From the NCBI GenBank assembly GCA_964019695.1, contig OZ026525.1:85942279-86006278 (forward strand): a stretch of DNA of 64,000 bases, in the 5' to 3' direction. Below, in pieces: positions 24,541-62,876 of this stretch. A program made the position numbers and the translations under genes. Position 1 is the first letter of the stretch; every line of letters starts with the position of its first letter. Source of the DNA: Loripinus fragilis (taxonomy: Eukaryota > Mollusca > Bivalvia > Lucinida > Lucinidae). The notes under the pieces are model-generated. The model had not been told where the DNA came from and did not search any database. It was given only the letters and a program-made list of their open reading frames with translations.

Positions 24541-26791
24541 CGCTTCTTGCTTGAATTTAAATTGTTGTTTTTTGTGAGATTCCCAATGCTATATACCAAG
24601 AAAGGGTGAACGCTTCTTATTAGATTGAGTATTCTCAGTTTGAGATTAATAAAATAAACTTATGAATTAAAACGAAACAAGAATGGACTTGGCGCTTCTT
24701 GTTTGGATAGTTTATGTTCATACATGGTCTTCGCGATTCAATCACAGAGTGAGAAGTTTCTTGCTTGTTTTAGCTAGCAATCTCGATTTTGAGATTATTA
24801 AAATAAAATTTACGAATTCACATGAAACAAGAATGGGCTTGGCGCTTCTTGTTTGGCGAGACGTAGTTTATACAATGTAGATTGTCTTTGGTCAGACTCC
24901 AAAAGTGATTAAACAAGAAATTTGTGTGACGTTTCTTGGTTGTTTAGCATCCTCAGATTTGAGATTATTGTAATGAACTTTTAAAATCTAGCACGAAACA
25001 AGAATGGGCTGGGCGCTTCTTGTTTCGCGAGATGAGGTTTATACAATGTAGATTGTCTTTGGGAAGAGTACAAAAGTGATTAATCAAGAATGGGTGTGAC
25101 GCTTCTTGGTTTTTTTTTATCATTCTTAGATTTGAGATTATTAAAATGAACTTTTAAGAACTCGTACGAAACAAGGATGGACTTGGCGCTGCTTGTTTGG
25201 CGAGATGAGGTTTATCGAATGTAGATTGTCTTTGGACAGACTCCAAAATTGATTAACCAAGTATGGGTGTGACGCTTCTTGGTTGTTTTAGCATTTTAAG
25301 ATTTGAGATTATTAAAATGAATTTTTAAGAACTCGTACGAAACAAGGATGGGCTTGGCGCTTCTTGTTTGGCGAGAAGACTTTTGTCAGACTCCAAAGTG
25401 ATTAACCAAGAAAGGGTATGACGCTTCTTGGTTGTTTTAGTATTCTAAGATTTGAGATTATTAAAATGAACTTTTAAGAACTCGTACGAAACAAGGATGG
25501 GCTTGGCGCTTCTTGTTTGGCGAGAAGACTTTGGCCAGACTCCAAAAGTGATTAACCAAGAATGGGTGTGACGCTTCTTGGTTGTTTTAGCATTCTCAGA
25601 TTTGAGATTATTAAAATGAACTTTTAAGAACTCGTACGAAACAAGGATGGGCTTGGCACTTCTTGATTGGCGAGAAGACTTTTGACAGACTCCAAAGTGA
25701 TTAACCAAGAATGGGTGTGACGCTTCTTGGCTGTTTTAGCATTCTTAGATTTGTGATTATTAAAATGAACCTTTAAGAACTCGTACGAAACAAGGATGGG
25801 CTTGGCGCTTCTTGTTTGGCGAGAAGACTTTGGCCAGACTCCAAAAGTGATTAACCAAGAATGGGTGTGACGCTTCTTGGTTGTTTTAGCATTCTCAGAT
25901 TTGAGATTATTAAAATGAACTTTTAAGAACTCGTACGAAACAAGGATGGGCTTCGCGCTTCTTGTTTGGCGAGAAGACTTTGGTCGGACTCCAAAGTGAT
26001 TAACCAAGAATGGGTGTGACGCTTCTTGGTTGTTTTAGCATTCTAAGATTTGTGATTATTAAAATGAACCTTTAAGAACTCGTACGAAACAAGGATGGAC
26101 TTGGCGCTTCTTTTTTGGCGAGAAGACTTTGGTCAGACTCCAAAAGTGATTAACCAAGAATGGGTGTGACGCTTCTTGGTTGTTTAAGCATTCTCAGATT
26201 TGAGAATATTAAAATGAACGTTTAAGAATTAGTACGAAACAAGGATGGGATTGGCACTTCTTGTTTGGCGAGAAGACTTTGGTCAGACCCCAAAAGTGAT
26301 TAACCAAGAATGGGTGTGACGCTTCTTGGTTGTTTTAGCATTCTCAGATTTGAGATTATTAAAATGAACTTTTAAGAACTCGTACGAAACAAGGATGGGC
26401 TTGGCGCTTCTTGTTTGGCGAGAAGACTTTGGTCAGACTCCAAAGTGATTAACCAAGAATGGGTGTGACGCTTCTTGGTTGTTTAAGCATTCTCAGATTT
26501 GAGATTATTAAAATGAACGTTTAAGAATTAGTACGAAACAAGGACGGGATTGGCACTTCTTGTTCGGTGAGAAGACTTTGGTCAGACCCCAAAAGTGATT
26601 AAACAAGAATGGGTGTGACGCTTCTTGGTTGTTTTAGCATTCTCAGATTTGAGATTATTAAAATGAACTTTTAAGAACTCGTACGAAACAAGGATGGGCT
26701 TGGCGCTTCTTGTTTGGCGAGAAGACTTTGGTCAGACTCCAAAGTGATTAACTAAGAATTGGTGTGACGCTTCTTGGTTGTTTTAGCATTC
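24540..26791 (+). repeat. Tandem satellite, about 150-bp monomer, left block
   Basis: 'actcgtacgaaacaagg' recurs near 25160, 25331, 25480, 25630, 25779, 25929, 26078, 26229, 26378, 26528 and 26677. Monomers from about 25480 alternate 149 and 150 bp; earlier ones are longer (about 170 bp) and more diverged. Each monomer has two hairpins: AACCAAGAA...TTCTTGGTT, and AAACAAGAA (or AAACAAGGA)...TTCTTGTTT. The last monomer is cut after 'tagcattc' by the large insertion. Minus-strand ORFs here arise because 150 is divisible by three. Confidence 0.95.
26788..26791. repeat. ATTC target-site duplication, left
   Basis: ATTC precedes the left terminus and recurs at 62873-62876 directly after the right terminus. 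An uninterrupted satellite monomer has a single 'agcattctaag' here. Confidence 0.8.
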
Positions 26792-27255
26792 AACAGCCAC
26801 CAGTTTTTTTTTGCCACACCAGAATTTGGCAAAATCACATCATCTTTCTAGTGGTGCAAAAGACTCAAAACCACTAAAATACAAAAATACAGACATAAGG
26901 GAGCAAAACATATATAATTATGACTAAAAAGATATATGCCATCATAATGAAAAAAATGGTCAAAGTCAAAAACCCCGCGGGGTTTTCCAAAAACCCCGCG
27001 GGGTTTTTAAAACCCCGCGGGGTTTTTAAAACCCTGCGCGGGGTTTTTCCCCCATATTTTCAAATGGGGGAAAAACCCCGCAGGGTTTTTTCAAAAAAAT
27101 AAATATCAAAATAAGTTCAAGAAATAAACTTGTTTGATTGTAATTATTTCAGAAAATGATTGGTAAGGCTTAATTCCAACCTTTAATTTCCCCTGCGGGG
27201 TTTTTCTCCCATTTCAGATTGTGGGGGAAAAACCCCGCAGGGTTTTTTGAAAAAA
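26792..27255 (+). repeat. Left terminal inverted repeat of the 36-kb element
   Basis: Aligned by eye with the reverse complement of 62427-62872, there are about four substitutions in the first 180 bases. Length differences follow in the number of CCCCGCGGGG units. From about 26967 the TIR is a string of palindromes such as AAAAACCCCGCGGGGTTTTT. Homology fades after 'gggttttttgaaaaa', but a further shared palindromic block occurs at 27355-27430 (right counterpart 62250-62325). The short ORF from 26920 is an artefact of the repeat. Confidence 0.85.
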
Positions 27256-27354
27256 TAAAAAGGTTTGTTTTTAATTGTATTGCTTTACAAAACAATATAG
27301 AAGCTGAATTGAAGTTTTTCTCATCATTTGAAGCCTTTCAAGCAAAATAAAAAA

Positions 27355-27430
27355 AAACCCGCGGGGGAAAACCCCCGCAGGGTTTTTCCCCCACAAAATG
27401 AAATGGGAGAAAAACCCTGCGGGGTTTTCA
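27355..27430. repeat. Subterminal CCCCGCAGGG palindrome block, left
   Basis: 'ccccgcagggtttttccccc' through 'gggagaaaaaccctgcgggg' matches the inverse of 62250-62325. It is separated from the TIR by non-homologous sequence, as expected of subterminal transposase-binding repeats. Confidence 0.65.
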
Positions 27431-27539
27431 CCAAAGAGTGATTATCAGTTTTACTAATGATTGAGATCAGTTATACATTCAGAGCTCATATTATTTAAGT
27501 TTTTACAGTAATTAAAGGCCATAAAACAATTCTCTCGAT

Positions 27540-27635
27540 GGCCCCTCCCCCCCCCCCCCAACCCTTGTCCGCCCCCCCCCGCGCCCCTCCCCCCCCCCCC
27601 CCCCGCCACCCCCCCCCCCACCCCCCACCCCCGTC
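27540..27635. repeat. C-rich low-complexity tract
   Basis: Almost pure C with scattered A, T and G. Proline-rich and glycine-rich ORFs on either strand are artefacts. Prone to sequencing and assembly error. Confidence 0.9.
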
Positions 27636-27639
27636 GTCC

Positions 27640-28704
27640 GCCATGCACTGCATCAGTGGTGATCACTACCAAGTTTGCACCATCGAACGGCCCAAAAAAT
27701 ATTGTTCGGGTAGCACTGATATTATTTGTTTAGCACGATTCATTACATCCCAGTCAACCATTTATCAGTCATGTTAGGATGCGTCTTATGGGTTGAAACA
27801 GTTCTAACAGCAGATAAAAGCACTAATATTAATAACGGCCATTGCAGTACATGTCATACATAACTGCAATCTTATAAACTGGTTAATATGTAGTACATTG
27901 ACAGACAGTGCAAGCCAGGATCAGATGCAGCAGAATGTAACATCTGATCACGGTCTTCATTGATTGTTTAGGAATCATAGAATGGGTTGGGCATTAAGAA
28001 ATTTGGGTCTTTTCTACAACCCTGTGTGCATCCTATAGAAAGATCCTGGTCTAAAGCAGACTAATTTCACAGATCTTAATTGATGTACCAATTCCGGCTA
28101 CACAGTGTCTTTCATGCATCCAAGGGTCCATGAGGGGGGTCGCGCCTATAGCAATGCACCAAACTCCTGGGGAGTGTACAGGAAGATAGAGTACGGATTG
28201 GGTAGTTAAAAAAACTAAGATGGCAGATTGATTACTAAATCTGCATGACATTCTATTTTCTACTAGTTACAGAGGTATAGTGAGATTTACAAGAAAAGTA
28301 TTACTGGAATGTGCTCACTTTGACAACTAGCTGATGAAAGGTAAATTGATTTTGCCTTGTCAATTAGTTTTTAGCTACTTTCATTTTGCCTACAAGCTGA
28401 CAAGTTCCCCACCCCCTGGCCCTGCCTCTGTAGACAGAAAATAACCAGTGATTAACTGTGATTTGCAAATAAATTTGTGTTGAGTTGAGTGAAAGAGTTG
28501 ACTACTTGCGAGACAATACAGTCAAAGGGCTGTTAATAACAATAACAGCTTACATAAACTTTTGCACTGTCACATTTTTAAACAACAATTTTTAAGCCGG
28601 TACAGACAAACCATTGGCAGAACAGATAGAACGGGCCCACTGGGCACCGAGCCTGTTGTGTTAAAGTCAATTGTGACAGTACAATGTATCGATGTATATG
28701 TACA
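27640..28704. other. No recognisable feature
   Basis: Unique-looking AT-rich interior of the 36-kb segment. No domain-bearing ORF was found. Confidence 0.4.
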
Positions 28705-28712
28705 GTCGATAG

Positions 28713-29267: not shown

Positions 29268-29275
29268 GTCGATAG

Positions 29276-29830: not shown

Positions 29831-29834
29831 ACGT

Positions 29835-30115
29835 TTTTCTTTGGGTTTTTATGCCGCCAAAGGAACTTTGGGAGGCATATAGTAATTGCACAGTCCGTCC
29901 GTATGTCCGTCCCTCCGTCCCGCTTGGTGTCCGGTGCATATCTCCTAGATTCTTTGAGGTAGGGATTCCAAATTTGGTATGTGGATACATCTTGGGATGG
30001 GGGAGTGTCGCATACCATTTTCGGGTCACTGTGACCTTGACCTCTGACCTAGTTTTTAGAATAACCGTGTCCGGAGCCTATCCCTTACATTATTTGAGGT
30101 AGGAATTTCAAAGGA
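29835..30115 (+). repeat. Bivalve-type repeat start with TGACCTTGACCTCTGACCT unit
   Basis: 'ccaaaggaactttgggaggc', a GTCC-rich stretch (cagtccgtccgtatgtccgt) and one unit containing TGACCTTGACCTCTGACCT at about 30029-30047. This appears to be the leading part of the array continued at 31530-32650. The overlapping ORFs on both strands are repeat artefacts. Confidence 0.7.
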
Positions 30116-30787
30116 TCATTGACGGTTTGGGCCTTATACGCCTATTTTTCTGATTCCCAGAACGCTACTTTTGAGCTTCTAGTGTGGTGCATGTAGTATC
30201 AGTGCAATAGGTGAATCTAATGGCAAGAGCCAGCTAGCAAAATATTTTCAAAATTCCTACGCACTCGAGAGTAATGGCGGGTAGAAAGGGGAGGGGGTCT
30301 GAAATTTCATGAAAATAAAAAGTGCTTTAAAAAGTGATTTCTGCACGTTTTCTTGATTTATTTGGTAGGCATGGTGATATCTATCGAAAATACCATATGC
30401 AGAGTATCAACGGATCACGATAATTGACGAAATTGTTTTAAAAACAAAATATGTTTTGTAATAAAATGATTTTGGGGAGATAAGTTAGAAGTTACCTGTA
30501 CATTTTTGACTACATGTACCATACATAATACAAAAATGAAAGCTCAACAAAAGAAATAATTATTTTTGAAGGAAGGAAAGTGTCCCATTTAGCATTGGAA
30601 AGTAAAACTGATTCTAACTAGATCCTTTAAATATTACTTTGGCTTTGTTAAAAGGGCATTGCATGTTAAATGTATTTAAAGTGTCCGAATATTTATGGTA
30701 TATATATACATGTATATCCCTATATGAGACAATGTATTGAACACTAACGTATTTACCTGTTATAACTCTTTGCATCCCAGTGGATAA
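30116..30787. other. No recognisable feature
   Basis: AT-rich interior with no ORF or repeat that I recognise. Confidence 0.4.
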
Positions 30788-30951
30788 TTTTGTCGTCTGT
30801 CAATAGCCTTTTTGCAAACAGTTTGAACCCAGATGAAGACCAACAGAATGTCGGTCTTGATCTGGATCCAAACTGTTTGATACTCCGATGGTGGTCCTGG
30901 GTGTTTTATTTTTAAAAACTTAATTTTGAAGAAAGTCAGCAGACGAAAATG
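30788..30951. mobile_element. TTGTCRTCTGCTGA-family MITE
   Basis: Ends 'attttgtcgtctgtcaa' and 'gtcagcagacgaaaat' are inverted. Inside, TTTGCAAACAGTTTGAACCC and GGATCCAAACTGTTTGA form a second inverted pair around 'agaccaacagaatgtcggtc'. This internal pair is the family's signature. Confidence 0.8.
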
Positions 30952-31221
30952 AAAAACATGAACAATTCCCTAGCATGCAAATAGATAAGTACAGGACGTT
31001 TGCAAAAGAATGTGTCATTTAATAACAGTAAGATTTTTTCTTGTGAAAAAATGCATAAAACCTTGCTAATTCTACTTTTAATCTTTAAGTACTTTATATT
31101 AAACTAGCACAGAATACAAAGCAATTTAGGAGATTGGTTCATTACTTTCAGTAATTTCATATTTTGGTAAAAAAGGCATTTTATGGGCTTAGGCCCCCGG
31201 TTTTTGGGCTGCTGAACATCT

Positions 31222-31316
31222 TTCCCCCCCGTGTGCCAGCAAGCCACTTCCATACAATGTGTAAAATACGGTAACACATATACATGCCAAAGCTTTTGCT
31301 GGCACACAGGGGGGAA
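31222..31316. repeat. Inverted repeat, 21-bp arms
   Basis: 'ttccccccc' followed by 'gtgtgccagcaa' pairs with 'ttgctggcacacaggggggaa', with one mismatch and a loop of about 53 nt. Confidence 0.7.
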
Positions 31317-31529
31317 TGATATTTTAAAAAATGTTTTCGGATTTCTATATATTATAATGTAAAACTGATTGTTCTACCCAAAATTTTACATCTTTGAAGC
31401 ATTTAATATCGAAAACGGATTTCACAGCCATAAAGTACTCAGGTCAGGGTAGCTTTAAGGTGAAGAAAGGGACGATTGACAAACTTTTATTTTTACTGAA
31501 AACCATAGGCATTTACCCATAGCAAGTGT

Positions 31530-32650
31530 CAATGATCCTTTGGTGTGTTGATGCATCTTGGGATGACAAAGTGTTGCGTACCATAATTGGGACACTTTGA
31601 CCTTGAACTTGACCTCTGATTTAGTTTCTAGAAACTGCATTGAGTCTGGTGCATATCTCCTATATTCTTTTAGATAGGAATTCCAAATTTGGTGTGTAAA
31701 TGCATCTTAGGATGACAGAGTGTCACATACCATTTTCAGGTCACTATGACCTTGACCTCTGACCTAGTTTTAAGAATTATTATGTCCTGAGCCTATCTCC
31801 TACATTCTTTGAGGTAGGAATTCTAAATTTGGTATGTGGATACATCTTGGGATTGTGGAGTGCCGCGTACCATTTTCGGGTCACTGTGACCTTGATCTTG
31901 ACCTCTGACCTAGTTTTTGGAATAATCGGTTCCGGAGCATATCTCTTATATTATTTGAGGCAGGAATCTCAAATTTGGTGTGAGGATGCATCTTGGGATG
32001 ACAAAGTGTCCCGTACCATAATTGGGTCACTGTGACCTTGAACTTGACCTCTGACCTAGTTTCTAGAAACTGCAATGAGTCTGGTGCATATCTCCTATAT
32101 TCTTAGAGATAGGAATTCCAGATTTGGTGTGTAAATGTATCTTGGGATGACAGAGTGTCACATATCATTTTCGGGTCACTGTGACCTTGACCTCTGACCT
32201 AGTTTTAAGAATTATTGCGGCCGGAGCCTAAATCATAGGATGTTGATGCATCTGGGGATGGCGGAGTATTGTTTACCATTTTCGGGTCACTGTGACCTTG
32301 ACCTAACCTAGTTTTTAGAATAATCGTGTCTGGAACATATCTCTTATATTATTTGGGTAAGGAATCTCAAATTTGGTAAGTGGGTGCATCTTGAGATGAC
32401 GAAGTGCCGTGTACCATAATCGGGTCACTGTGACTTTGAACTTGACCTCTGACCAAGTTTTTAGAAACTGCATTGAGTCTGGTGCATATCTCCTATATTA
32501 TTTGATGTAGGAATCCCAAATTTGGGGTGATGATTCCTCTTGGGATGGCAGAGTGGTGCATACCATTTTGGGTCACTTTGACCTTGACATTGACTTCTGG
32601 CCTCATTTCTAGGTTTTTCCTGTTTGGAGCATATCTCCTATATTACAGCT
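31530..32650 (+). repeat. Tandem array of TGACCT-rich units, about 145-bp period
   Basis: About eight units. Each carries 'catcttgggatg(a/g)c', 'gggtcactgtgaccttgacc', 'tctgacctagttt' and 'ggagcatatctcctatatt'. The conserved block occurs near 31611, 31758, 31898, 32050, 32192, 32300, 32446 and 32590. Read on the minus strand it is AGGTCAGAGGTCAAGGTCA, three nuclear-receptor half-sites. ORFs here are artefacts of the array. Confidence 0.85.
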
Positions 32651-32827
32651 TACTTTCCTCAAATGTGTCTTATGCTAGACCAATTCCTTTGGGGGCATTC
32701 GTCACGTGTTTGTGACATTTCTTGTTTAGTCCTCAACTTATTTTACAGAAGTCCAATGGTTTATTTTAAAGAAAATTGTAATTTTCCAAGGATCCAGAGG
32801 GGGTCTATCATTTTTCCCAAGGGGAGG

Positions 32828-37164: not shown

Positions 37165-37379
37165 GGTAAGATTTTGACCTTAGTATGAACAGTAAATATT
37201 TTTGCACTGATGAGATTACTGCAATACATTGAGAGACTGACCCAGAATCTAGGTAGCTGTACAATTATCTAAATAAGTAAAACAGATGTGTTTAACACAA
37301 ATCCCCCACCCACATTCTTCCAGAGCACTGCAAGTCACCAATTGTTATGTACTAAGTACTACTAGTCAATTGTATAGGC

Positions 37380-38310
37380 TCAAGGTGAGCTATTGTGATC
37401 ATAGGATGTCCGTCGTCCGTCAACAATTTCCTTTAAATAATGTCTCCTTCTGTACCACTTGGTGGTATTTCACCAAACTACACAGAAATCCTGCTTCAAA
37501 GCACTTGATGAGCTATTGTGATCGTTGGAAGTCAGTCGTCGTCTGTGGTCAACATTTGCATCAAAGGACATTTCCTAAACTACTAGCTGGATTTTGGCCA
37601 AACTTGGCAGGAATGATCTTTATATAGCCCTCTTTGATAATTGTTCAAATGATTTTGGTCAACACAGGCTAAAAATAGATTTTCAAGATGAAAAATTTAA
37701 AAATGTTCTTGTCTGAAACCACAAGCCATATAGATTTGATATTTGGTATGTGCATCATCTAAGTGACCTCTACCAAGCTTGTTCAAATTATGCCCATTAT
37801 GCCCATGGGTCATAAATGGGCCTGTCCCTGGGGTTACATGTGATACATAGGCTTATATAGGGAAAACATAAAAAAATCTTCTTGTCTAAAACCACAAGGC
37901 ATAGAGCTTTGATATTTGGTATGTAGCATCACCAAGACTAGTGGACCTCTACCAAGTTTGTTCAAATTATGATCCAGGTCCACCAAGTTTGTTCAAATTA
38001 TGCCCCTAGGGCCAAAAATGGTCCTGTCCCAAGGGGCCACATGTTTTACACAGGCTTATGGAAAACATGAAAAAATCTTCTTGTATGAAACCACAAATCA
38101 TAGAGCCTTGATATTTGATATGAAGTATAACCTAGTAGACCTCTACCGGCTTTGTTCAAGTTATACTCCTGGGGCCAAAAATGTTCCCGCCTCAGTGGTC
38201 ACATGATTTACTATTTTACATAGGCTTTAATAAGGAAAACTTGAAAAAATCTTCTTGTCTGAAACTACAAGGCTTAGAGCCTTGATATTTGGTATGTAGC
38301 ATCACCTCAC
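37380..38310 (+). repeat. 'gagctattgtgatc' dispersed repeat with 180-bp tandem units
   Basis: Two head units ('gtgagctattgtgatcatag' at 37384, 'gatgagctattgtgatcgtt' at 37507) with GTCCGTCGTCCGTC-like stretches are followed by about four tandem units. These share 'aatcttcttgtctgaaacca', 'cttgatatttggtatg' and 'cctctaccaagtttgttcaa' (near 37709, 37881, 38075, 38251). The style is one I associate with bivalve interspersed repeats. The ORFs in it are spurious. Confidence 0.75.
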
Positions 38311-39190: not shown

Positions 39191-39227
39191 GGTGTGTAGA
39201 TGACACATGTGAAGAAAAAGCATATGA

Positions 39228-43490: not shown

Positions 43491-43494
43491 TTGC

Positions 43495-49478: not shown

Positions 49479-52400
49479 GATCAGTTGTTTCCAAAAACGG
49501 GATATGTCTAGGTTCAGCAGGACAAAGGTTAATTTGATGTTTATGCAAGTGCATTTATTATAACATAGTAACCCTATTTGTCTCGACAAGCATCCATTTC
49601 TATTTTACTCTGCTTGTTGGAAATTATTCAGGTATTTTGTCATCTGCTGTCTTTTCTAAATTAATTTACTATATAGTTCCTTCATTATCACTATCAGAGA
49701 GTCAAACAGTTTGGATTCAGATCAGGTCTGACATTTTGTCGGTGCTGATCTGGTTCTAAAACTGTTTGCAAAGGTTATCAGCAGACAACAATTGTAGGCA
49801 AAGAGAAACTTCAGCAGTGTATATCTAACCAACTTGCAGGGTTCCACTTAGTAGTATGCATTTATAACCAAAGTAGAAAACAATATGTATCCTGATCAGC
49901 TGGTTTCAGGCCAGCTGATTCAGATCTATACTGTTTTCAAAACAAGTTATACCCAGGTACAACATGGTATGGGCCATTTTACATTATTTACAGGTCATCA
50001 TATTTCTTTAATTTTTATTTTTGTTAATTTTCTCCGAATTTTATGCACATAAAATTCGACAAAAATACAGAAGAAATTTAGGATAATGCCTGATTATGAC
50101 TATTTCCTATGAGTGTAGATCCAGATCAGCTAGCTTCTGAACAAACATGTACTTAAAATGAATAGTTTAGCATTTTAAAAGGATTTTTGCTTGGGAGTAT
50201 ATATTGTGGGAGTATCATTTTGGGAGCAGACATAGACGGCACCTTCAGGTGTGTAAAAACAAAAACCTTACACCCTAGTGCACATTATGTTTACTTAGTT
50301 TAGACATAGAGTGCATTAATAGTGAACTTCATGCAATGCACATAACAACTTTAGTTATAATTCATTACTCGAATATTAAGCGAATAAAGAAATGTGCTTC
50401 ATGCAAGATTGTCATTTTGTATCCTGCTTGATAACTTATATCACTTTAACTATCCTTGTTAGCAAAGACTTTTGTCATCTGCTGATAACCTTTGCAAACA
50501 GTAAGGACCCAGATCTGGAACGAGAAGAATGTCGATCCTGATCTTGATCCATAAGGATTGACACTCTAATAGTGCGTTCCTGAAAGAATTTATTGAAAAA
50601 AGTAATTTAAAAAAAAAAAGTCAGCAGACGACAAAAAAGTTCATAGATGAAGATCTTTCTGGTTCTATTGTATTGTTATAATTCATAACTCGAAAATATT
50701 AAGCCAATAAAGAAATGTGCTTCATGCTAGATTGTCATTTTGTATCCTGCATGATAACTTATGTTATTTTGAATTATATCATTTTAACTATCCTTGTTAA
50801 CTAGGTTGCAAGGCAGTAGACATTAGAATAAAAACCCGTATTATTAGCTTTTGGATGAATATTGTGAATGGTAAACAAACAAAACTATCAAAATGGTTAT
50901 ACTTACTTCTACTAGGAGAATATGATGGTGGCATCCATCAACATAAATGGATCCATTTTATTAAACATATTCTAATATCTGTAGGGCGTCCCGATCTTTT
51001 AAACAAGGAAGTCATTAAAAACCCAAAATCAATCAAAAATCAAATCTTTAAAACTCTTTCAGACCTTTATGTTCAGGAGTGGCATAACAAAGTAACTTCA
51101 TCCTCTAAAGGAAAGAATTATACTCTTTTCAAGCAAGATTTAAATTTTGAAAATTACCTAATCAAATTAAATAGGAAACACTGTTCTTCATTGTTAAAGT
51201 TTAGGTAAAGTAATCATCGCTGGGAAAACACACCTTTAGAAGACAGAAAATGCACATTATGTAGCAAACATGATATCGGTGACGAATTTCACTATCTTTT
51301 TGTTGTTGACCACTTTATATCTGACAGAAAGAAATATTTAAGATCATATTTTTACAAAAGTCCTAACATTATAAAATTCAAAGAACTATTTTCTTCAGCA
51401 AATACCAGGAAGCTTGTAAAGTTATCAAGTTTTGTAGAAATTATAATGAATAAATTTTCATGTGCAGCCTAACCCTAAAAGAGTCAATCATTACGATAAT
51501 ATACTTCTTACTATGTCTTGGCTTAATATTTCATGGGAATAACCTGATTATAGACAACTAACATGATATGTCAAATCATGCGAATTGTCTATAATCAATA
51601 ATGTGAAGCCTTATTTTGTTTCCTAATGAAGCAACAACAGTCGATCATGTTGCCTACTGTAAGTTATAGAAGGCTCTTTCAGGGTTGATTTTGCTCGCAT
51701 TTTAACTTTCACCTTTTTCATGCTCTTTGTACTCATGTATTTTATGTATATCATGTATATGCTTTGTTTTTGTATCTTATGCCTTTACGCTATCTATGAG
51801 TGGTCTGAGTTTTATGTCAATAAAATATGTTCTGTTCTGTTAACAAAGACTTTTGTCATCTGCTGATAACCTTTGCAAACAGTAAGGACCCAGATCAGGG
51901 CCGAGAAGAATGTTGATCCTTATCTTGATCCAAACCGACTGACACTCTAATAGTGTGCTTTTGAAAGAATCTATTGAAAAAAGTTATTTAAAAAAAAAAA
52001 GTCAGCAGACGACAAAAAGTTTATAGAAAAAAGATCTTTCTGGTTCTATTGTATTGTATTTGAATTTAAGGTACAACTTGCATTTTATATTGTAGAACAG
52101 TGACCTATGTCACTGTACAGAAATGTGTAGAAAGACCCTTGTTACTGTGTATAACATTTTATCAGACAGACAATGTCGTCTGCTGATAACCTTGCAAACA
52201 GTTAGGACCAAGATCCTGGTCTGCATCCAAACTGTTTGACATTCTAATTGATTTCCTGAAAGAATTTTTGCAAAAGACATAAAAAGTATTCAACTAGTTA
52301 AAAAAGATCTTTTTGGTTTTAATGGTCAGCAGACCTCAAAACATTAATGTGGGCATGACTGGATTTGTTCATCTAAATTGAAGTGTTCTTGTTACCCTGG

Positions 52401-52865
52401 CAACAAATAGCAGGCTTCTGACCACATGGTGAGGCTATTACCTGGTGACTTTCCCAATAAACACAGAATTTTCAGTTTTACACTGTCAATCACATACCAG
52501 CTTTAGCAAACAATGTAGATACAGATGAGAAGCAGCTAATAAGGAAAGAGTTAAATCATTAAGGTCCTTTAAGATAGTCTTCTGGAATTACCTTTTAGTG
52601 AATAAATTATTTTGTTCAAAGAACAAAAAAAAATAGTCCCTGATCAGACTGCATTGAATTTTTTATATAAATCTTTACATGCAACATACTTAGTGATTTT
52701 GTTGTCGTCTGCTGACTCCTTTCAAAATAAATATTTTCAAGAAATTTCAGGAAAAAAATCAAAGTGTCAAATTGTATGGATCCAGATCAGGACCAAACAT
52801 ACTGTTGGTCCTGATCTGACTCCAAACTGTTCATGAATGTTATCAGCAGATGACAAAAGTTTGAT
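49479..52865 (+). repeat. Segmental tandem duplication, unit 2
   Basis: Same order as unit 1: MITE 49634-49791, MITE 50470-50637, LINE 50803-51843, MITEs 51851-52017, 52173-52338 and 52697-52860. It lacks about 125 bp present in unit 1 between 'gctagcttctga' and 'acaaacatgtac' (near 50140). Confidence 0.9.
50803..51843 (+). pseudogene. 5'-truncated LINE (CR1/L2-like), unit 2
   Basis: Longest preserved frame of the three copies: 117 codons from 50855 to the shared stop at 51206-51208. The 21 bases after 'gtaatcatcg' are deleted at a CG microhomology, removing the LLVETGR part. The downstream frame with KCTLCSKHDIG resumes and ends at 51470-51472. One T is lost in the FVCDH segment ('tttgttgttgacc'). 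Confidence 0.8.
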
Positions 52866-53733
52866 GATCAGTTGTTTCCAAAAACGGGATATATCTAGGT
52901 TCAGCAGGACAAAGGTTAATTTGATATTTATGCAAGTGCATTTATTATAACATAGTAACCCTATTTGTCTCGACAAGCATCCATTTCTATTTTACTCTGC
53001 TTGTTGGAAATTATTTAGGTATTTTGTCATCTGCTGTCTTTTCTAAATTAATTTACTATATAGTTCCTTCATTATCACTATCAGAGAGTCAAACAGTTTG
53101 GATTCAGATCAGGTCTGACATTTTGTCGGTGCTGATCTGGTTCTAAAACTGTTTGCAAAGGTTATCAGCAGACAACAATTGTAGGCAAAGAGAAACTTCA
53201 GCAGTGTATATCTAACCAACTTGCAGGGTTCCACTTAGTAGTATGCATTTATAACCAAAGTAGAAAACAATATGTATCCTGATCAGCTGGTTTCAGGCCA
53301 GCTGATTCAGATCTATACTGTTTTCAAAACAAGTGATACCCAGGTACAACATGGTATGGGCCATTTTACATTATTTACAGGTCATCATATTTCTTTAATT
53401 TTTATTTTTGTTAATTTTCTCCGAATTTTATGCACATAAAATTCGACAAAAACACAGAAGAAATTTAGGATACTGCCTGATTATGACTATTCCCTATGAG
53501 TGCAGATCCAGATCAGCTAGCTTCTGAGAGGCCAGCTGATCAGGATCCACACTGTAAGGTGCAAGAATTGTCATAGTTAAAGGAAAGCGCAATACACCGT
53601 AACCGCTGACATAATTTAAAGGACTATATCTTGGAAAGAATTTGTAAGCAAAGAAATTGCTTAAAAAGTATATATTCAATCAACTATCGCTATTTCAAAT
53701 TTACGAAATTCGCGTTGGAATCCGCCTGAGGTA

Positions 53734-53762
53734 GCCGCCATGTTTTTACACCAGTGACGTCA
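53734..53762. promoter_or_regulatory. YY1-like and CRE motifs, left end of TTAA element
   Basis: GCCGCCAT at 53734-53741 and TGACGTCA at 53755-53762. The mirror arrangement occurs at 56276-56358. These are consensus motifs of metazoan promoters; activity is inferred. Confidence 0.35.
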
Positions 53763-54893
53763 CTTACTCACATCGATTTTCTAGTCGGTATACCATGCGC
53801 AAGGAGCGCTTGTGTCTTAACAAAATTAGCTGTCAATTTGTATTGAAACTTTGATTTAATTAGCGAGAAAAACAGCTCAAGCGTGTGATAATGTGTAGTC
53901 AAAATAGTTATGGACTAATTGGATAAAATTTTGGTAGCTGATTGGATGAACTGGAATTCAAAGTAAAAGTTACGATATCAGTCTAACGGCCTTTTATCTA
54001 TCTATCTATCACAGTGTTAAAGTGTTAAATCAATCACTTTTAAATCCACATCCCTTCATCAAATTTGCTTCGTTTTTACTCGAGGTTTTTATTAATGTCT
54101 TTTATATCGAAATATTTAACGCATTCACGCTTCCTATTCAATTGTTTGTTAAATTTTAACAAAGTCAGAACTGTAAGAAATATCAACGCATTTCCTTACA
54201 CATCTGCAAAAAATGTACACGCCAACCGACCCCACCGCAACATGATTTTGCTGACATTGCGAGGGTAGATCTACTCCTTTTAAATATTAAACTCATAATG
54301 AATAAGCCAATAAAGCATTTACAAATAGTCTGGGCCTCAATCACAGAGAAAAAACATATATGAGAATGGATACTTTTTAAGTTCAAACGGACGGTACCTC
54401 GTCTAAAGATCGGCCATCTTTGAGAAGTTTTCTCTGGATATTTAATAGAGCACTCATAAGCACTGGCCCCAGCCTATTCTCGAAGGCTTATCCAACAAAA
54501 TAAACATACATTTACTCATCTTAACATTTACACTTTTTATGCAAACGATATTTATTTCAGTTGTACGTCGAAAGCTCGTCTAACCATTTTGGCAAAACGG
54601 CTAAATTTGCGAGAATGTGTAGAGATATGATACCCAATCTATGCCACGGACCCTGTATAATCTAGTACCTGTGTTCACACGTGATTTGAACGAAGTTTAA
54701 CCGTTTGAATAAGAAATGAATTTCATTATTTGTCCAATTTTGTTAACACAATGTGACCCGCAACGCATTTCACCGGCTGATAAATTTTTAACAAGAAAAA
54801 AAATTGGGGAATAAGCGCATGAAAAAGTTACACAAGATGGGTAACTTTTTCATTTCTTTATTACAGAGTTTAATAATTTAAGCTCCAGTTTTT

Positions 54894-56126
54894 CAGGGCC
54901 GTCGCCGCGTATTTGAAAGTGGTCCGGCGGAGGAAGCGATCGAGTGCTGAAGGCACGAGAGGGGAAGAGCACGAAAGGGAATTATTCCCCCTCTTGTAAG
55001 GGGGGTTTGGGGGCCTCCCCCGAGAAAATTTGTGAATTTTGAGCGCTTCTATGTGCGTTTTAAGGGGGTTTTATGCGTTTGGGACCAGATATCAGTCGTT
55101 TTAGGCACGTTCTTTTACTAGAAAAGATATTCTCTTGTCGCTCTAGAAACCGAATGCTGTTTAGACAGTCACAATCTTTTTTTTTCAGCATGTTTCTTTG
55201 ACATTATTTCATCTATGTCCCCGCAAATTTTTGCAAAGTACTTTTAGCACTGATCCTTAGTGGTACTTCAGAGAGTCGTGTTTTAGAAAAGTCTAGTCTA
55301 GCGTCTTTTCAATTAGAGCACCCGTTAAGGATGCATGCTTCATCTATATTTTGGCTTCGGCAGGCATAACGAGATCTTTGGCTTCATCGTAATTGAGCCA
55401 GGGCCTACTGTCGAACCACGACGGCTAAACACTTCTCTGCTCAGGCTTATTAAAGTCGAATGAACGTTGGGGAACCGAAAAGTCTTGGGCTGAATTGGAA
55501 CAGGCGGGGCTTGAATGCATTGTAACAACACAGGCTCACGATGCTCATATATGTAAAGTCAAAACGTTTTCAACATACTTTGTCGCTCGACAATGTTAAC
55601 TAGAAGAAGAAAAAAATTTGCCAATATGAGGGAAATGAAATCGTCTAGACCTGTCTTCAGGGGTTCCGACCATGCAAGACTCAAACCAACCTACTCAGTC
55701 ACAGAGATTAGCTAGAATACTGAAATTTTGCGTGTAGTAAGTTTATCAATACACTTTCTTGGGAGCAAACAACAAAGGCGCTAATCAGACTGCACGGATG
55801 CGTAGGCTGGTCTGCGCCTTTGATGTTCGCATGCAGCTACGTCAGGTTTTCTCTGGTATGATAACGTCCATTATGAAATTAATCAAGCAGGTGTCATTAT
55901 ATTTTTTCAATGTTTTCACACCTTGGCTAGGTCGGTCTATTGATGACACGCGCAACGAGCGCTATGGGTAATCGCATCGATAAATTGTGACCGATTGAAT
56001 AAAATCAGAGGTAAGCTCAAAGTAAAATGAGCCGAAACGAGAAAAAAGGGACACGGCGGAAAGCATACTCGACCAAAAAAGTGGTCCGGCGCTTGCCGGT
56101 CTGCCGGACCGGCGACGACGGCCTTG
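54894..56126. mobile_element. Nested element with CARGGCCGTCGYCG ends
   Basis: CAGGGCCGTCGCCGCG on the left and the inverse CAAGGCCGTCGTCGCC on the right. Inner 'gtggtccggc' occurs near both ends. The left portion carries the 'aaggggggtttgggggcctc' G/C stem also found at 4.3-7.2 and 32.9 kb. T-runs flank both sides, so the target duplication is ambiguous. No transposase recognised. Confidence 0.65.
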
Positions 56127-56275
56127 TTTTTAGGTCTTTCATTCCAGTCGATCTTTATTCAATATATAAACCAATGATACTCAAAAAATAATAATAAAGT
56201 GTACACTCCAATATAATCCGACTCACTTAAACAATGCGTCTCACACATTCTCAATACACACAGAATGAGCGTAAA

Positions 56276-56358
56276 TGACGTCACGTCCAGTATCCTGGCT
56301 CCCGCGCTCCAGGTAAAGCGCTTACAAAAACGGGAACCAAACCAAAAACTATGGCGGC
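56276..56358. promoter_or_regulatory. CRE and YY1-like motifs, right end of TTAA element
   Basis: TGACGTCA at 56276-56283 and ATGGCGGC at 56351-56358, mirroring the left end. Confidence 0.35.
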
Positions 56359-57234
56359 GCTCTCAAGCAAACAAAAATCGCTGTGTTGGTATATTTAAAC
56401 GGCGAGATATCCTATTCAATCGTCTCCATTTTCCTTTTCTCATCAAATTTATGTTATGTGACACATCTTGAACAAATACAGTTCACGTTTTTTCATTTGT
56501 TGCGCTTTCCTTTAAATAATAAATCGATAGAAGAGAAATGAACAAAATATTCACTAAAAATATATATACAAAGTACAAACATGTACTTAAAATGAATAGT
56601 TTAGCATTTTAAAAGGATTTTTGCTTGGGGGTATATATTGTGGGAGTATCATTTTGGGAGCAGACATAGACGGCACCTTCAGGTGTGTAAAAACGAAAAC
56701 CTTACACCCTAGTGCACATTATGTTTACTAAGTTTAGACATAGAGTGCATTAATAGTGAACATCATGCAATTCACATAACAACTTTAGTTATAATTCATT
56801 ACTCGAATATTAAGCGAATAAAGAAATGTGCTTCATGCAAGATTGTCATTTTGTATCCTGCTTGATAACTTATATCACTTTAACTATCCTTGTTAGCAAA
56901 GACTTTTGTCATCTGCTGATAACCTTTGCAAACAGTAAGGACCCAGATCTGGAACGAGAAGAATGTCGATCCTGATCTTGATCCAAAAGGATTGACACTC
57001 TAATAGTGCGTTCCTGAAAGAATTTATTGAAAAAAGTAATTAAAAAAAAAAAAGTCAGCAGACGACAAAAAAGTTTATAGATAAAGATCTTTCTGGTTCT
57101 ATTGTATTGTTATAATTCATAACTCGAAAATATTAAGCGAATAAAGAAATGTGCTTTATGCTAGATTGTCATTTTGTATCCTGCTTGATAACTTATGTTA
57201 TTTTGAATTATATCATTTTAACTATCCTTGTTAA

Positions 57235-58302
57235 CTAGGTTGCAAGGCAGTTAAGACATTAGAATAAAAACCCGTATTATTAGCTTTTGGATGAATATTG
57301 TGAATGGTAAACAAACAAAACTATCAAAATGGTTATACTTACTTCTACTAGGAGAATATGATGGTGGCATCCATCAACATAAATGGATCCATTTTATTAA
57401 ACATATTCTAATATCTGTTGGGCGTCCCGATCTTTTAAACAAGGAAGTCATTGAAAACCCAAATCAATCAAAAATCAAATCTCTAAAACTCTATCAGACC
57501 TTTATGTTCAGGAGTGGCATAACAAAGTAACTTCATCCTCTAAAGGAAAGAATTATACTCTTTTCAAGCAAGATTTAAATTTTGAAAATTACCTAATCAA
57601 ATTAAATAGGAAACACTGTTCTTCATTGTTAAAGTTTAGGTAAAGTAATCATCGGCTTCCGGTTGAAACTGGTCGCTGGGAAAACACACCTTTAGAAGAC
57701 AGAAAATGCACATTATGTAGCAAATATGATATCGGTGACGAATTTCACTATCTTTTTGTTTGTGATCACTTTATATCTGACAGAAAGAAATATTTAAGAT
57801 CATATTTTTACAAAAGTCCTAACATTATAAAATTCAAAGAACTATTTTCTTCAGCAAATACCAGGAAGCTTGTAAAGTTATCAAGTTTTGTAGAAATTAT
57901 AATGAATAAATTTTCATGTGCAGCCTAACCCTAAAAGAGTCAATTAGTACGATAATATACTTCTTACTATGTCTTGGCTTAATATTTCATGGGAATAACC
58001 TGATTATAGACAGTTCACGTGATATGTCAAATCATGCGAATTGTCTATAATCAATAATGTGAAGCCTTATTTTGTTTCTTAATGAAGCAACAACAGTTGA
58101 TTATGTTGCCTACTGTAAGTTATAGAAGGCTCTTTCAGGGTTGATTTTGCTCGCATTTTAATTTTCACCTTTTTCATGCTCTTTGTACTCATGTATTTTA
58201 TGTATATCATGTATATGCTTTGTTTTTGTATCTTATGCCTTTACGCTATCTATGAGTGGCCTGAGTTTTATGTCAATAAAGATATGTTCTGTTCTGTTAA
58301 CA
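57235..58302 (+). pseudogene. 5'-truncated LINE (CR1/L2-like), unit 3
   Basis: Same truncation point and shared TAA before SNHRL as the other copies. A single A deletion in 'gaaaacccaaatcaatc' shifts the frame after 60 codons. The downstream zinc-knuckle-like region is intact to TAA at 57926-57928. The tail is 'gttctgttctgttaaca'. Confidence 0.8.
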
Positions 58303-58370
58303 AAGACTTTTGTCATCTGTTGATAACCTTTGCAAACAGTAAGGACCCAGATCAGGGCCGAGAAGAATGT

Positions 58371-58795
58371 TATAATCCCAAATAATTGGTATGTTCTAGA
58401 ATGTTCTAGAAAGTCTCAGTCCAGTTCCAATTCTGCTTGAATAGAACTTCCTGGGATTTTGTGGTACTTCACTTTACATGGTATTTAATGGAATTCCATT
58501 AAATCCCAAAAGTTGGAACAATTGGTATTTTCTGTCACTATCTGGAACTGGAAAATCCCAGAAAGTCTCAAATAATTCTGCTTAAAATATAAGTGGGATT
58601 TTATGTTACTTTCTGGGATAAATATTTCATTTAATCCCCAGAAAGTCCCAGTAGGTACTTTAAATGGGATTATTAAGATTTTCTGGGACTTCATCAATTC
58701 AACACATCCATATAATTTGGGATTAAATGGAATTTTTTGGTACTGCTAGTAAATAATTTGGTTCCATTTAATACCAAATAATCCCAACCTAGATT
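58371..58795. mobile_element. AT-rich element with GGGATTAAATGG-type inverted motifs
   Basis: Many forward and inverse copies of 'aatcccagaaagtcccag' and 'gggattaaatggaa'. It starts 'tataatcccaaataattgg' and ends 'taccaaataatcccaacct'. It abruptly interrupts a MITE at 58370, so it inserted later. Superfamily unknown. Confidence 0.6.
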
Positions 58796-59555
58796 TGCAT
58801 AGGACCATTATATTCTGAACTCAGTCTGACCTTGAAATATGATATAACTGTGTTAACCTGGTTCTCTCATTTCAATGACTCAAGCTGAAATTCTTTAATC
58901 TTGCAGGAAACCAGAAAAAGATTCAAATAAACCTCATGGTTTGCAAGGCTCTAACTATTTGATAAATCCTGTGTTAATTTTGGATATATACTGCATAAAC
59001 TGCACAAAATAAATCCTACAACAGACAATGTGAGTAAATAGAACATATTTCTATGCTTATAAATTATACTTGCATGAGACTTTTCATCATATAATTTAGT
59101 TTCTCAGAAACAAAGCCATTTGTAGTTGTTTCTTTCTTTAAATGCTGATGAAAGACGCTTAATACTGAATTGTGTTCATTATGGTTATACAATTTTACCA
59201 TTATCATTATTATTTACAGCAGCATTTATGGCAGTACAACACTTAGTTAGTGTGGTACATGTAAGCAGGTTAATTACTGAAATTACAGGATAATCAGGCT
59301 GATCATTGGGGCTTATTTTTATTTGATTTTTTTTATCCATTCTCTTTTTAAGATGGTGTTGGAGATATTGCGATGCCTTCGTCTGTATATCAGGTTTTTG
59401 TTTGTTATGCTATCTTCTAAACAACTGGACAGATTATCCAACCAAATTTGTTGAGCAACTGGTGTATGCAACAGCAAAATTCCATTACCCCAATGATGTG
59501 GGATGTAGGTCAAAATTGTCCTTCGGTCTGCCCATTTGCCTGCAATACTTTCACC
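58796..59555. other. No recognisable feature
   Basis: AT-rich sequence with no gene. 'aactggacagattatccaac' near 59421 resembles the style of bivalve dispersed repeats. Confidence 0.35.
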
Positions 59556-59557
59556 TT

Positions 59558-59880
59558 GCAAACAGTTTGTTTGTTTTGTTGCTTTACGTCCCAAGTCAAC
59601 AGCTATGGTCATGGCGGGACAGTTAGTTCACCTAACCACACTTTTTCCTGGGCAAGCTTTAACAAGCAGTTAACCAGTACTTCGTGCACATACTTTCACT
59701 TGTAACTGACAACAACCCTTCTTGAATGATTCAGCAGAAGGGAGGAGAATGACCGTAGAAATTATTTCATGATCAATCTCCACGAAAGTACGGGACCGGG
59801 TTGGGATTCAATCTCGCGACCCCTGGAATCGGACTCACATCTGTTGCCAGACACGTTACCGACTGCGCAAACGGTCATAC
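59558..59880 (-). mobile_element. tRNA-derived SINE, minus strand
   Basis: The minus strand starts with a tRNA-like head at about 59797-59877: A box TTGCGCAGTCGGTAACG (from 59854-59870) and B box GAGATTGAATCCC (from 59803-59815). A body of about 200 bp follows ('cttctgctgaatcattcaag'). The end is 'ttgggacgtaaagcaacaaa' with an ACAAACAAAC tail. Head, body and AC-rich tail match the organisation of tRNA-derived SINEs. Overlapping ORFs on both strands are artefacts. Confidence 0.75.
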
Positions 59881-60680
59881 TGAATCCAACCGAATTTGTT
59901 TGGTGACTTACTTGCACAAGTGGGTGAGCAGGAGCATTACTGTTTTTTGCTTTTTGGATCCCCTTTGCATGGGCCTCAGAAAGTGTGCATTTTCTGGCTA
60001 AATTGCAGTCTCTTTCTGAATTGCTGGGTAGAACTCAACCAAATTTGTGCACAACTTAAACAAATTGTGTATACAAGAGCTTATTTTTGGGTACCCCACT
60101 CAGAGGCGCCCTATAATGGGGTCAAAAGTGTCTGCCCATTCTTCTTTTTGCTAATCCAAACATGCTGGGCTGAATTCAACCTAATTTGTTGAAAGGTCGA
60201 CTTTCTCACAAGTGGGGAGTGGTAAAGAACATTTATTTTTTTAACCTTCCAGCCAAATTTTCGATTATCCGAAACTACTGGGTTATTCGAAGACTACGGA
60301 CAGTCCTGACTTTTTTCTCTATTATCTATTGCAATAAAACTACCTATTATTCGAATTTCGATTATCCGAAAAATTCAATTTTTCGAAGTGATTTGTCGGT
60401 CCCGATAAAAGAAATGGCTATTAAATTACCTTTCAAGATTCGAAGTCCAAATGTCACGCATGGTGATCATGATTTCTTTGTTTGGTCGAGTTTATTTTTA
60501 TTATATAGATTAATAATAAGAAAAAAATAGGTGAATGCCATTACAATAATACTTCATCAGTGTTGACGTGGTCTATTGTCATATACAGCATGGATGTTGG
60601 TGACCTGATTTTGAATGAAACGATTCAAATCTGAATATCGATATATAAACAAACAGGTTTTAAAATATTAAAACCAAACC
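59881..60680. other. No recognisable feature
   Basis: Two loosely similar stretches ('tgctgggtagaactcaacca' at 60022, 'tgctgggctgaattcaacct' at 60163) suggest a diverged dispersed repeat. No gene. Confidence 0.35.
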
Positions 60681-60684
60681 AATA

Positions 60685-60815
60685 ATGTATATGATGTATA
60701 TATGTTCAATGTTTCTATCTTGCTTTTGTAATTGTGCTTTATTTGTATGCTCTTCACATGTGGAGGAAATAAAGAATATTATTATTATCATTATTTTTAT
60801 TATTATTATTATTTT
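60685..60815 (+). repeat. LINE-like 3' end with (ATT)n tail
   Basis: 'tctatcttgcttttgtaatt' through 'gtggaggaaataaagaatat' followed by repeated ATT to about 60815. This is the layout of a non-LTR element 3' end with AATAAAG and a microsatellite tail. No coding part is attached. Confidence 0.6.
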
Positions 60816-61199
60816 ATTAAGGTCGTCTGCAATGATGGTTTTGTTTGATGTTTTTTTAAATGTCTAATTATGGGCAATAAATGAGCTAAACTTGATTTTA
60901 ATTGGATCTTCTCATCCTTTGATTTATTCTTGACCACTGTTTACATTATATTTAATATAGAATACAAGTATGTCTACAGAATTCCAAAGGGCCCTTACTT
61001 AGACTACAGTTATAATTCTGTCTGATTACTCTACTGGTTGTGATGAGATGAGACGAGCAATTATTTTGCCACACAAGCAGATATAATGATAGATATTGTA
61101 TACGACTTGGATAAGGATAAGTTAGATATTTCAAAACATTTAACCAATTTAACAAATACTAAATTGTCATGTTGAAATAGAAACTATTATTTTCCACGC
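60816..61199. other. No recognisable feature
   Basis: AT-rich sequence, no gene. Confidence 0.4.
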
Positions 61200-62120
61200 C
61201 CCTCTATCTATATCGTAGTATTATACATATATGAAAATATTGAAAAAGTTTATATATAACATCTGTAAAAAAGGTCTTGATAATAGAGCAATGAATTGCT
61301 TCCTAAGATTAAAGCACCAAAGCCCAGAGATTTATAAGAAACCATGCGAAAAATATTCATTTCCCTTTGAAATATCATCTCTTACACCAAGTCAATGGCC
61401 TTGCTAATTTATTATGTTAGGTAACATAAGTTACAACCTGTAACACAACCTGTAACAAGTACTCCTATCTTGTTGTTTAACATGCAAAATCTATGATTCT
61501 TTATAATATGAGCAAGACTATCAAAATATGGAAGATTTTATATAATTTTTACGTAAATAATACCTACCAAAGTGGGCTCCTTAAAACTTGGGGGAGTGTT
61601 GTTTAATTGCTTATATAAGGCAATGCATTTAAGATAGATAAACACACTTTGTTTTTTTTCTATAAGCCAAATAAGTGTGTTAGTACAACTAGATTAAAAG
61701 CATTTTAAAAATTCCCAAATCAGCTGTAAAATTAAATGCTATTGATCACAGTTACCGTTTTTAAAGGGTAGTTTTATGTAAGTAACGCACATAACACATT
61801 AGGATGCCGTAATTTTGCTTTAAAACTTTTATCTGCAGCTTAGGTATCCAGCAGGCAGACTATATGCGTGATTTAAATAGTTAGTTTAATGCCTTTTTTT
61901 CTGTAGCACAGCCTTTTAACTTTTCATTTTCTGAATTTTATATGGTAACATATGTAACAGACTGTCAGAGGCAAACACCAAATCGTACACATGCAAACAT
62001 CTCTTATTCTACGCAGCTTGAAATGCTCTTTTAAGATATGATGTGTCTGCAAAATTCTTTAGCGGGGAGCAAAACATTCTCAGCCATCAGTCTAACAATG
62101 ATACATTGCCATTTTGGTAA
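61200..62120 (+). repeat. GTAACATATGTAAC-family repeat, distal copy
   Basis: Cores at 61421-61434 (GTAACATAAGTTAC) and 61945-61958. 'gcaaacatctcttattctac' and 'tgtctgcaaaattctttag' match 12.7 and 14.2 kb, same orientation. It lies just inside the right end of the 36-kb segment, while its relatives lie outside at 8-14 kb. Confidence 0.6.
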
Positions 62121-62249
62121 CGTATATTTTAGGATTTCCCACCAAGGGAGAAATTGAAATCTCTCTGTTTTGATATAAAACTCTCACAACTTTGAACACA
62201 GAGTGTAAAATGCTTCTTTGAGCTAAAAACTAAAAATATTATTTTTGGA

Positions 62250-62325
62250 TAAAAAACCCCGCAGGGTTTTTCTCCCATTTTATTTTGTGGGGGAAAAACC
62301 CCGCAGGGGAAAAACCCTGCGGGGG
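62250..62325. repeat. Subterminal CCCCGCAGGG palindrome block, right
   Basis: Inverse counterpart of 27355-27430, with 'aaaaaccccgcagggttttt' units. Confidence 0.65.
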
Positions 62326-62426
62326 AATTTTCTTTTTCCTCTAGAGGCACAATATAATGCTGAAAGTTTTTGATATACCTTTTATTATGCATTGTGATGA
62401 ATAATAATCAAAAAAAAATCAATTTG

Positions 62427-62872
62427 AATTTTTCAAAAAACCCTGCGGGGTTTTTCCCCCACAATCTGAAATGGGAGAAAACCCCCGCGGGGGAAATCAA
62501 AGTTTTGAATTAAGCCATATCAATCATTTTCTGCAATAATTACAATCAAACAAACTTGTTTCTTGAACAAATTTTAATATTTATTTTTTTGAAAAAACCC
62601 TGCGGGGTTTTTCCCCCATTTGAAAATGGGGGGGAAAAACCCCGCGCGGGGTTTTAAAAACCCCGCAGGGTTTTCGAAAAACCCCGCGGGGTTTTTAACT
62701 TTGACCATTTTTTTCATTATGATGGCATATATTTTTTTAGTCATAATCATATATGTTTTGCTCCCTTATGTCTGTATTTATGTATTTTAGTGGTTTTGAG
62801 TCTTTTGCACCACTAGAAAGATGATGTGATTTTGCCAAATTCTGGTGTGGCAAAAAAAAACTGGTGGCTGTT
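62427..62872 (-). repeat. Right terminal inverted repeat of the 36-kb element
   Basis: Reverse complement of 26792-27255 with few substitutions and one fewer CCCCGCGGGG unit. The outermost bases are CTGGTGGCTGTT. Confidence 0.85.
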
Positions 62873-62876
62873 ATTC
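62873..62876. repeat. ATTC target-site duplication, right
   Basis: ATTC directly follows the terminus, then 'taagatttgtgattatt' resumes the satellite monomer where the left block stopped. Confidence 0.8.

Follow-up and report, generated by a model that had tools for sequence, protein, structure and literature searches.

Polinton/Maverick is a giant DNA element with terminal inverted repeats (TIRs), typically of 15-25 kb and in some cases of up to 40 kb, according to one review (PMC6431247). Teratorn, a fusion of piggyBac and herpesvirus, is a giant TIR DNA transposon found in an animal and flanked by target-site duplications; it is ~180 kb long, has ~90 predicted genes in addition to its transposase, and is present in 30-40 plus ~5 copies (PMC5601938). 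We describe a further segment of giant size bounded by TIRs, 36,081 bp long, at positions 26792-62872 of a 64,000-nucleotide stretch of the Loripinus fragilis genome, together with the family of copies to which it belongs. This whole stretch, referred to as the window, corresponds to C14:85942279-86006278 in an assembly of 1.987 Gb and 685 contigs.

The same review covers smaller or differently built units that carry cargo (PMC6431247). Pack-MULEs, to which the present family can be likened, and other non-autonomous TIR elements that carry cargo have TIRs around non-transposase DNA and depend for their movement on cut-and-paste in trans; among the Pack-MULEs of Jiang et al. 2004, none was above the 7-kb full-length element and most were of 1-2 kb. 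LARDs are large units amplified by enzymes from elsewhere, held between two long terminal repeats, with a content rarely above 10 kb. In Ising's composite TE of Drosophila, very long, cytologically visible host segments were mobilised between two foldback elements. According to the review, DNA transposition becomes significantly less efficient once the cargo is longer than 6 kb, and natural barriers may keep elements lean; artificial constructs have nevertheless moved cargoes of 100-200 kb (PMC6431247).

Boundaries and insertion site of the element

The element starts with AACAGCCACCAG and ends with CTGGTGGCTGTT, and ATTC stands directly outside both ends. Its ends and surroundings in the window are as follows.

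24494-26791, plus strand: satellite array with units of 150 and 171 bp, to the left of the element (repeat finding)
26788-26791, no strand: left target-site duplication, ATTC (read in the sequence; duplication scoring)
26792-27428, plus strand: left TIR, L type, with 9 of the window's 18 palindromes of the type CCCCGC(G/A)GGG (self-alignment, fold)
62253-62872, minus strand: right TIR, R type, with the remaining 9 palindromes (self-alignment)
62873-62876, no strand: right target-site duplication, ATTC (read in the sequence; duplication scoring)
62873-64000, plus strand: satellite right of the element, the same as the left array and with its phase kept (repeat finding, joined-flank alignment)

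When the two flanks were joined with one ATTC, a gap-free match to an intact satellite stretch of the window was obtained (415 positions, 12 mismatches, 97.1%); excision of the element together with one ATTC copy thus restores the phase of the satellite monomer. The first-pass annotation, made from the letters of the window, had reported ATTC on both outer sides and one satellite in one phase beyond both ends, as this alignment bears out, and had named an assembly gap within the segment as an observation that would speak against it; no N occurs anywhere in the whole 64-kb window. Its bounds of 26788-62876 enclosed a real segment but took in both ATTC copies. It had also put the inverted ends at 450-465 bp, which is right as to long inverted ends being present but too short: 26792-27428 aligns with 62872-62253 at 85%, with identity of 94-100% in the outer 200 bp that fades only by ~640 bp.

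Comparison of whole copies

Five other copies, on C2, C4, C5, C11 and C212, were fetched over ~40 kb each. All five are colinear with the window segment from the left end through the interior, copy-specific insertions and deletions (indels) aside, and differ from it by 1.4-1.7% in substitutions. The right end was reached within the fetched C11, C212, C4 and C5 stretches; that of the C2 copy lies beyond, and was found by pattern and then read. The copies on C11 and C212 are especially close to one another, being 99.4-99.8% identical in seven of eight aligned pieces, with a 1.6-kb piece at the left end as the exception at 98.8%. The aligned pieces span 33.4 kb of the C11 copy, the C212 copy being longer by ~565 bp at one place, and both copies share insertions relative to the window. 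Their flanks are unrelated and their duplications are TTGA and TAAT, respectively. Since ~33 kb of nearly identical sequence stands in unrelated flanks with different duplications, a unit of ~33 kb was transposed as one.

The two ends were compared in the window copy and in four others. Within a copy, the left end is 87-89% identical to the right; the left ends of the four other copies are 99% identical to the window's left end, and their right ends 98-99% identical to its right end. Because L matches L and R matches R better than L matches R within a copy, the two ends descend, or travel, as a pair. Judged by these alignments, the left and right ends are distinct types and are not interchangeable. 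All palindromes of the above type that were matched in the window fall within the two TIRs, and they may be candidate binding sites for a transposase. As a single strand, the left TIR (26792-27110) folds far better than its shuffles (z −10.2). Just inside the left TIR, a C-rich tract of ~90 bp (27542-27632) is rich in indels between copies, and 11 distinct frame-shifting indels were counted around 27457-27774 among five copies.

Taken with the duplications described below, the comparison shows that an intact unit of ~31-37 kb, running from a distinct L end to a distinct R end, has inserted as a block with a 4-bp A+T-rich duplication, many times and recently. The first-pass proposal that a single transposition moved 36 kb is accordingly supported for a length of ~33-36 kb by the C11 and C212 copies, which are 98.8-99.8% alike over ~33 kb in unrelated flanks. 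As the size moved at the present site, a giant unit stands, but 36 kb is an upper bound: the range is 31.7-36.1 kb, on account of two insertions private to the window copy (see below).

Family size and pairing of ends

The whole assembly was searched with two patterns. A 31-bp end pattern, with at most 3 mismatches, was found at 308 forward and 315 reverse places (623 in total), against 0 and 0 for the reversed control. A 23-bp motif lying 61 bp inside the end, with at most 2 mismatches, was found at 395 and 397 places (reversed control 0); this total of 792 may include relatives, since the motif occurs also in a 160-bp relative. These counts would correspond, very roughly, to 300-400 copies with two ends each.

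Positions of ends were taken from the first 100 places listed for each pattern, the merged lists covering C1-C4 up to 82.9 Mb. The first list alone gave 38 convergent pairs among its 100 ends, with no other neighbour arrangement within 100 kb; of its 24 ends lacking a partner, 12 gained one from the second list and 12 did not. In the merged lists, 122 ends gave 51 convergent pairs; 20 ends had no partner, and a single neighbouring pair was non-convergent. The listed pairs measure 2.9-79.5 kb, with a median of 35.1 kb: 40 of 51 lie at 30-45 kb, 3 are below 10 kb, 4 are of 10-30 kb and 4 exceed 45 kb. The last four are of 48.6 kb (C4:33286690), 51.0 kb (C1:112908787), ~59.0 kb (C3:91295157) and 79.5 kb (C1:59891592), and exact 4-bp duplications were read at the ends of three of them. 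The longest, C1:59891592-59971114, has an exact CTGT duplication.

Identical 4 bp were found on both sides of 33 of the 34 paired copies that were read at both ends. Scoring by script of 33 copies, picked for exact ends mostly from the end-pattern and similarity lists, gave an exact 4 bp in 32, with a match longer than 4 bp in none; the 34th copy, of 2.9 kb on C3, has CTAG on both sides as read by eye. The target sequences vary, TTAA being absent among the 33 scored, and are rich in A and T (97 of 128 positions in the 32 exact duplications). A second empty site was provided by the C11 copy, whose insertion site is an old dispersed repeat: apart from the copy's own flanks, which account for 2 of the 40 best places, all 38 others match across the joined junction, at 71-80%. 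Both empty sites, in the satellite and in this dispersed repeat, are paralogous and not allelic. TIRs at both ends of many copies, a duplication of fixed length and an empty site that can be restored, if paralogously, are features of a class II element. The search that the first-pass annotation had called for, of TIR copies with their paired distances and flanking 4-mers, thus yielded 51 listed pairs around a median giant size and near-uniform 4-bp duplications. Its concern that such ends might belong to short elements was not substantiated by these lists, in which most pairs are of 30-45 kb and the three short copies are internal deletions.

Some copies are neighbours or share flanks. On C3, C3:89772330-89809381 and C3:90037215-90074266 are neighbouring copies of 37,052 bp each, apparently mutually inverted; on C4, C4:47232546-47272069 and C4:47296097-47335619, of 39,524 and 39,523 bp, are likewise apparently mutually inverted. 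Inverted segmental duplication and assembly doubling are candidate readings of both. The copies on C440 and C212 have their left flank in common and probably represent a single insertion present on both haplotypes, or else a duplication in the assembly.

Interior of the window copy

The interior is made of three tandem arrays, of tandem 3.4-kb units whose number varies between copies, and of fragments resembling long interspersed nuclear elements (LINEs). Its features are as follows.

29929-30112, plus strand: start of a 149-bp tandem repeat array, cut off from the remainder by an insertion in the window copy (self-comparison, copy alignment)
30113-31538, no strand: insertion private to the window copy, with ends GGATCATTGAC / GTCAATGATCC (alignment to five copies)
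31539-32645, plus strand: 149-bp tandem repeat array, also in the other copies read at length (repeat finding, copy alignment)
37690-38307, plus strand: imperfect tandem repeat of ~170-200 bp, also in the other copies read at length (self-comparison, copy alignment)
41169-42230, plus strand: 383-bp tandem repeat, 2.8 copies (repeat finding, copy alignment)
46711-53527, plus strand: two tandem 3.4-kb units (46711-50140 and 50141-53527), 96% alike (self-comparison, frames)
53582-56513, no strand: insertion private to the window copy, with inverted ends AGGAAAGCGC (alignment to five copies)
56514-58371, plus strand: partial third 3.4-kb unit (self-comparison, copy alignment)

Neither private block occurs in any of the five other copies read at length, and both look as if they had entered the window copy later. 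The first (1.43 kb) has inverted ends and lies exactly between AAA and TTT, with no duplication relative to the uninterrupted copies; we take it to resemble Spy elements. The second (2.93 kb) has TTAA on both sides, the uninterrupted C11 sequence being slightly different from TTAA at that place. The window copy minus both insertions is 31,723 bp, and as the two blocks are absent from the five other copies, the unit that landed in the satellite was of 31.7-36.1 kb. Stretches of the 3.4-kb units resemble a non-LTR reverse transcriptase in its C-terminal region, a putative assignment that no library confirmed.

Two further repeats were recorded in the window. A repeat of ~500 bp occurs outside the element at 7923-8429, 12316-12789 and 13774-14267, and inside it near the right TIR at 61565-62067, the occurrences being 64-72% alike; an inverted pair of ~370 bp (9675-10044 and 21307-21667) is 94% alike.

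Coding content

In the window copy, no stop-free frame is longer than 135 amino acids (aa). In a six-frame Pfam scan of 42 pieces, with X at stops, covering 27430-52231 and 53280-62871 and run without a positive control, no domain was found above cut-off, the sole hit being DUF2460 (E 0.062, below cut-off). Three forward frames of a 2-kb stretch of C5 and of a 7.4-kb stretch of C2 gave 0 Pfam families. In a stretch of the window outside the element, Herpes_UL3 (E 0.055, below cut-off) was taken as chance. No convincing synonymous excess was seen among 74 open reading frames (ORFs) of at least 45 aa with at least 8 changes, the lowest p being 0.022, uncorrected, in what is, with six copies, a weak test. 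An Rfam scan at gathering thresholds gave 0 hits, and ARAGORN with the bacterial code 0 genes.

Short copies and a small relative

The short copies C1:87830238 (4.8 kb), C2:62433611 (6.3 kb) and C3:98662550 (2.9 kb) each have one L and one R end with adjoining pieces of the interior. They were considered as autonomous partners and rejected, all three as read being internal-deletion derivatives of the giant with no long ORF. The copy of 2.9 kb, with 90-93% similarity to the window, is older than the giants read. The first 12 bp of the end (AACAGCCACCAGV) gave 122 matches, against 24 in a reversed control that is weak, the pattern being of 13 bases. Among 100 places listed for AACAGCCACCAGV, one close inverted pair was noted by eye, a 160-bp inverted-repeat element at C15:38340771-38340931, the right 85 bp of which are 88% like the giant's TIR and which has no 4-bp duplication. 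From this resemblance it is a possible small relative of the giant.

A giant transposon proposed to move in trans, and alternative readings

The window segment is, with good confidence, a member of a young, high-copy family of giant (mostly ~31-37 kb) class II TIR transposons of the cut-and-paste type, and it would be non-autonomous, its transposase being supplied in trans. Such an enzyme, made elsewhere or by rare other copies, would act on the giant's ends, binding the ~620-bp ends, possibly through the nine palindromes that each of them contains. The two ends would then be paired across ~35 kb, and the unit cut out and pasted at a 4-bp staggered cut, presumably by a DDE transposase. The interior would consist of older repeats and LINE-like fragments that a founder already carried and that were passively amplified. 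Non-autonomy is proposed because no Pfam domain was seen above cut-off, the longest frame of the window copy is short, and no ORF gave convincing signs of selection.

Several observations weigh against this account. No transposase was found in the element, by the ORF selection test or by the six-frame Pfam scan of 27430-52231 and 53280-62871, which had no working positive control, and Pfam may itself lack the relevant transposase family. Frames of up to 230 aa occur in the 3.4-kb units of the C11, C212 and C5 copies, and an insertion that only C5 has contains one of 253 aa, all of them LINE-like by eye. No autonomous partner was found among the three short copies read and the 100 places listed for the first 12 bp of the end. 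One copy, C2:27780169, is flanked by ATAT and TATG, with 3 bp in common and no 4-bp duplication, and 20 of the 122 listed ends have no partner. Deletion derivatives are also rare, with 3 of 51 listed pairs below 10 kb and 4 of 51 at 10-30 kb. In most non-autonomous families short deletion derivatives are common, the reverse of the pattern seen here, so the interior is perhaps needed in cis or hides a gene. This rarity is the main observation that a simple non-autonomous reading leaves unexplained.

It is possible, although we put it forward only tentatively, that the giants are more than passive cargo: the ~31-kb interior, in which tandem repeats lie between the palindrome-rich ends, may have to be present in cis, or may code for a transposase that has escaped recognition, selection within the element keeping the giant size. 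If so, the family would be a new superfamily of gene-poor giant DNA transposons that move at full size and, as short deletion derivatives, only poorly. That the giant is itself autonomous, with a transposase of a family outside Pfam that is split into short exons or kept in some copies, is an unlikely explanation. It would suit the 44 of 51 listed pairs of at least 30 kb, far above the short derivatives, as if the interior were needed, as well as the four pairs above 45 kb, three of them with exact duplications, and the scan would miss any family that Pfam does not model; the 135-aa limit on stop-free frames, the Pfam scan with nothing above cut-off and the 74 ORFs, whose lowest uncorrected p of 0.022 is unconvincing, speak against it.

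The segment could also be two short elements flanking an unrelated 36-kb stretch, as a composite transposon or as chance neighbours, and the 160-bp C15 element shows that a short element with a related end exists, albeit with no 4-bp duplication; this is very improbable, and refuted for the window copy, as the interior is colinear in all five copies, the eight pairs matched by eye among the 40 best places per end have one L and one R end each, all 10 C1-C4 places among the best 40 for an inner segment lie, by eye, within 25 kb of a listed end, and the three short copies are internal deletions that carry both ends. Spread by segmental duplication, or an assembly artefact, has hardly any credit either and is refuted as the main mode: the equal-length neighbour pairs on C3 and C4 and the left flank common to C440 and C212 may be put down to it, so that it explains only a few copies, but 33 of 34 paired copies have their own 4-bp duplication and the nearly identical 33-kb unit stands in unrelated flanks.

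Comparison with known transposon systems

Set beside the known systems, the non-autonomous giant described here differs from each of the nearest kinds considered in size, duplication length or gene content. Polintons make 6-bp duplications, whereas 4 bp was found here (32 of 33, one having 3 bp), and no Pfam domain of a polymerase, integrase, protease, ATPase or capsid was found, in a scan that had no positive control. The absence of Polinton genes noted in the first-pass annotation therefore holds at E 0.1 in six frames over 27430-52231 and 53280-62871. The target of piggyBac is TTAA; in contrast to Teratorn, the present family is of ~35 kb, gene-poor and more numerous, with variable 4-bp targets that are not TTAA. 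Mutator elements duplicate 8-9 bp, a length not met here, and compared with Pack-MULEs the family is typically of ~35 kb with a 4-bp duplication. Helitrons have neither TIRs nor a duplication; both are present here, so the family is not a Helitron. The ends are inverted, unlike those of LARDs, and in place of the host segments of Ising's TE there is one constant unit, bounded by an L end and an R end, that recurs several hundred times.

Sola, Chapaev, Ginger and Academ make 4-bp duplications, and this they have in common with the present family, in which no transposase was seen. To our knowledge, the end sequence AACAGCC matches no superfamily end. The earlier statement that the segment fits no known family can thus be kept as far as the features of Polinton, Teratorn, Mutator and Helitron go, which fail here, while the superfamilies with 4-bp duplications were compared by duplication length only.

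Provided that all counted ends come from full copies, the family would amount to ~11-14 Mb, or 0.5-0.7% of the assembly. It would also suggest that a transposition machinery capable of handling long cargo exists. Several hundred young, gene-poor TIR copies of ~35 kb in one genome would be, next to the lean elements described at the outset, a natural counter-example to the size limit.

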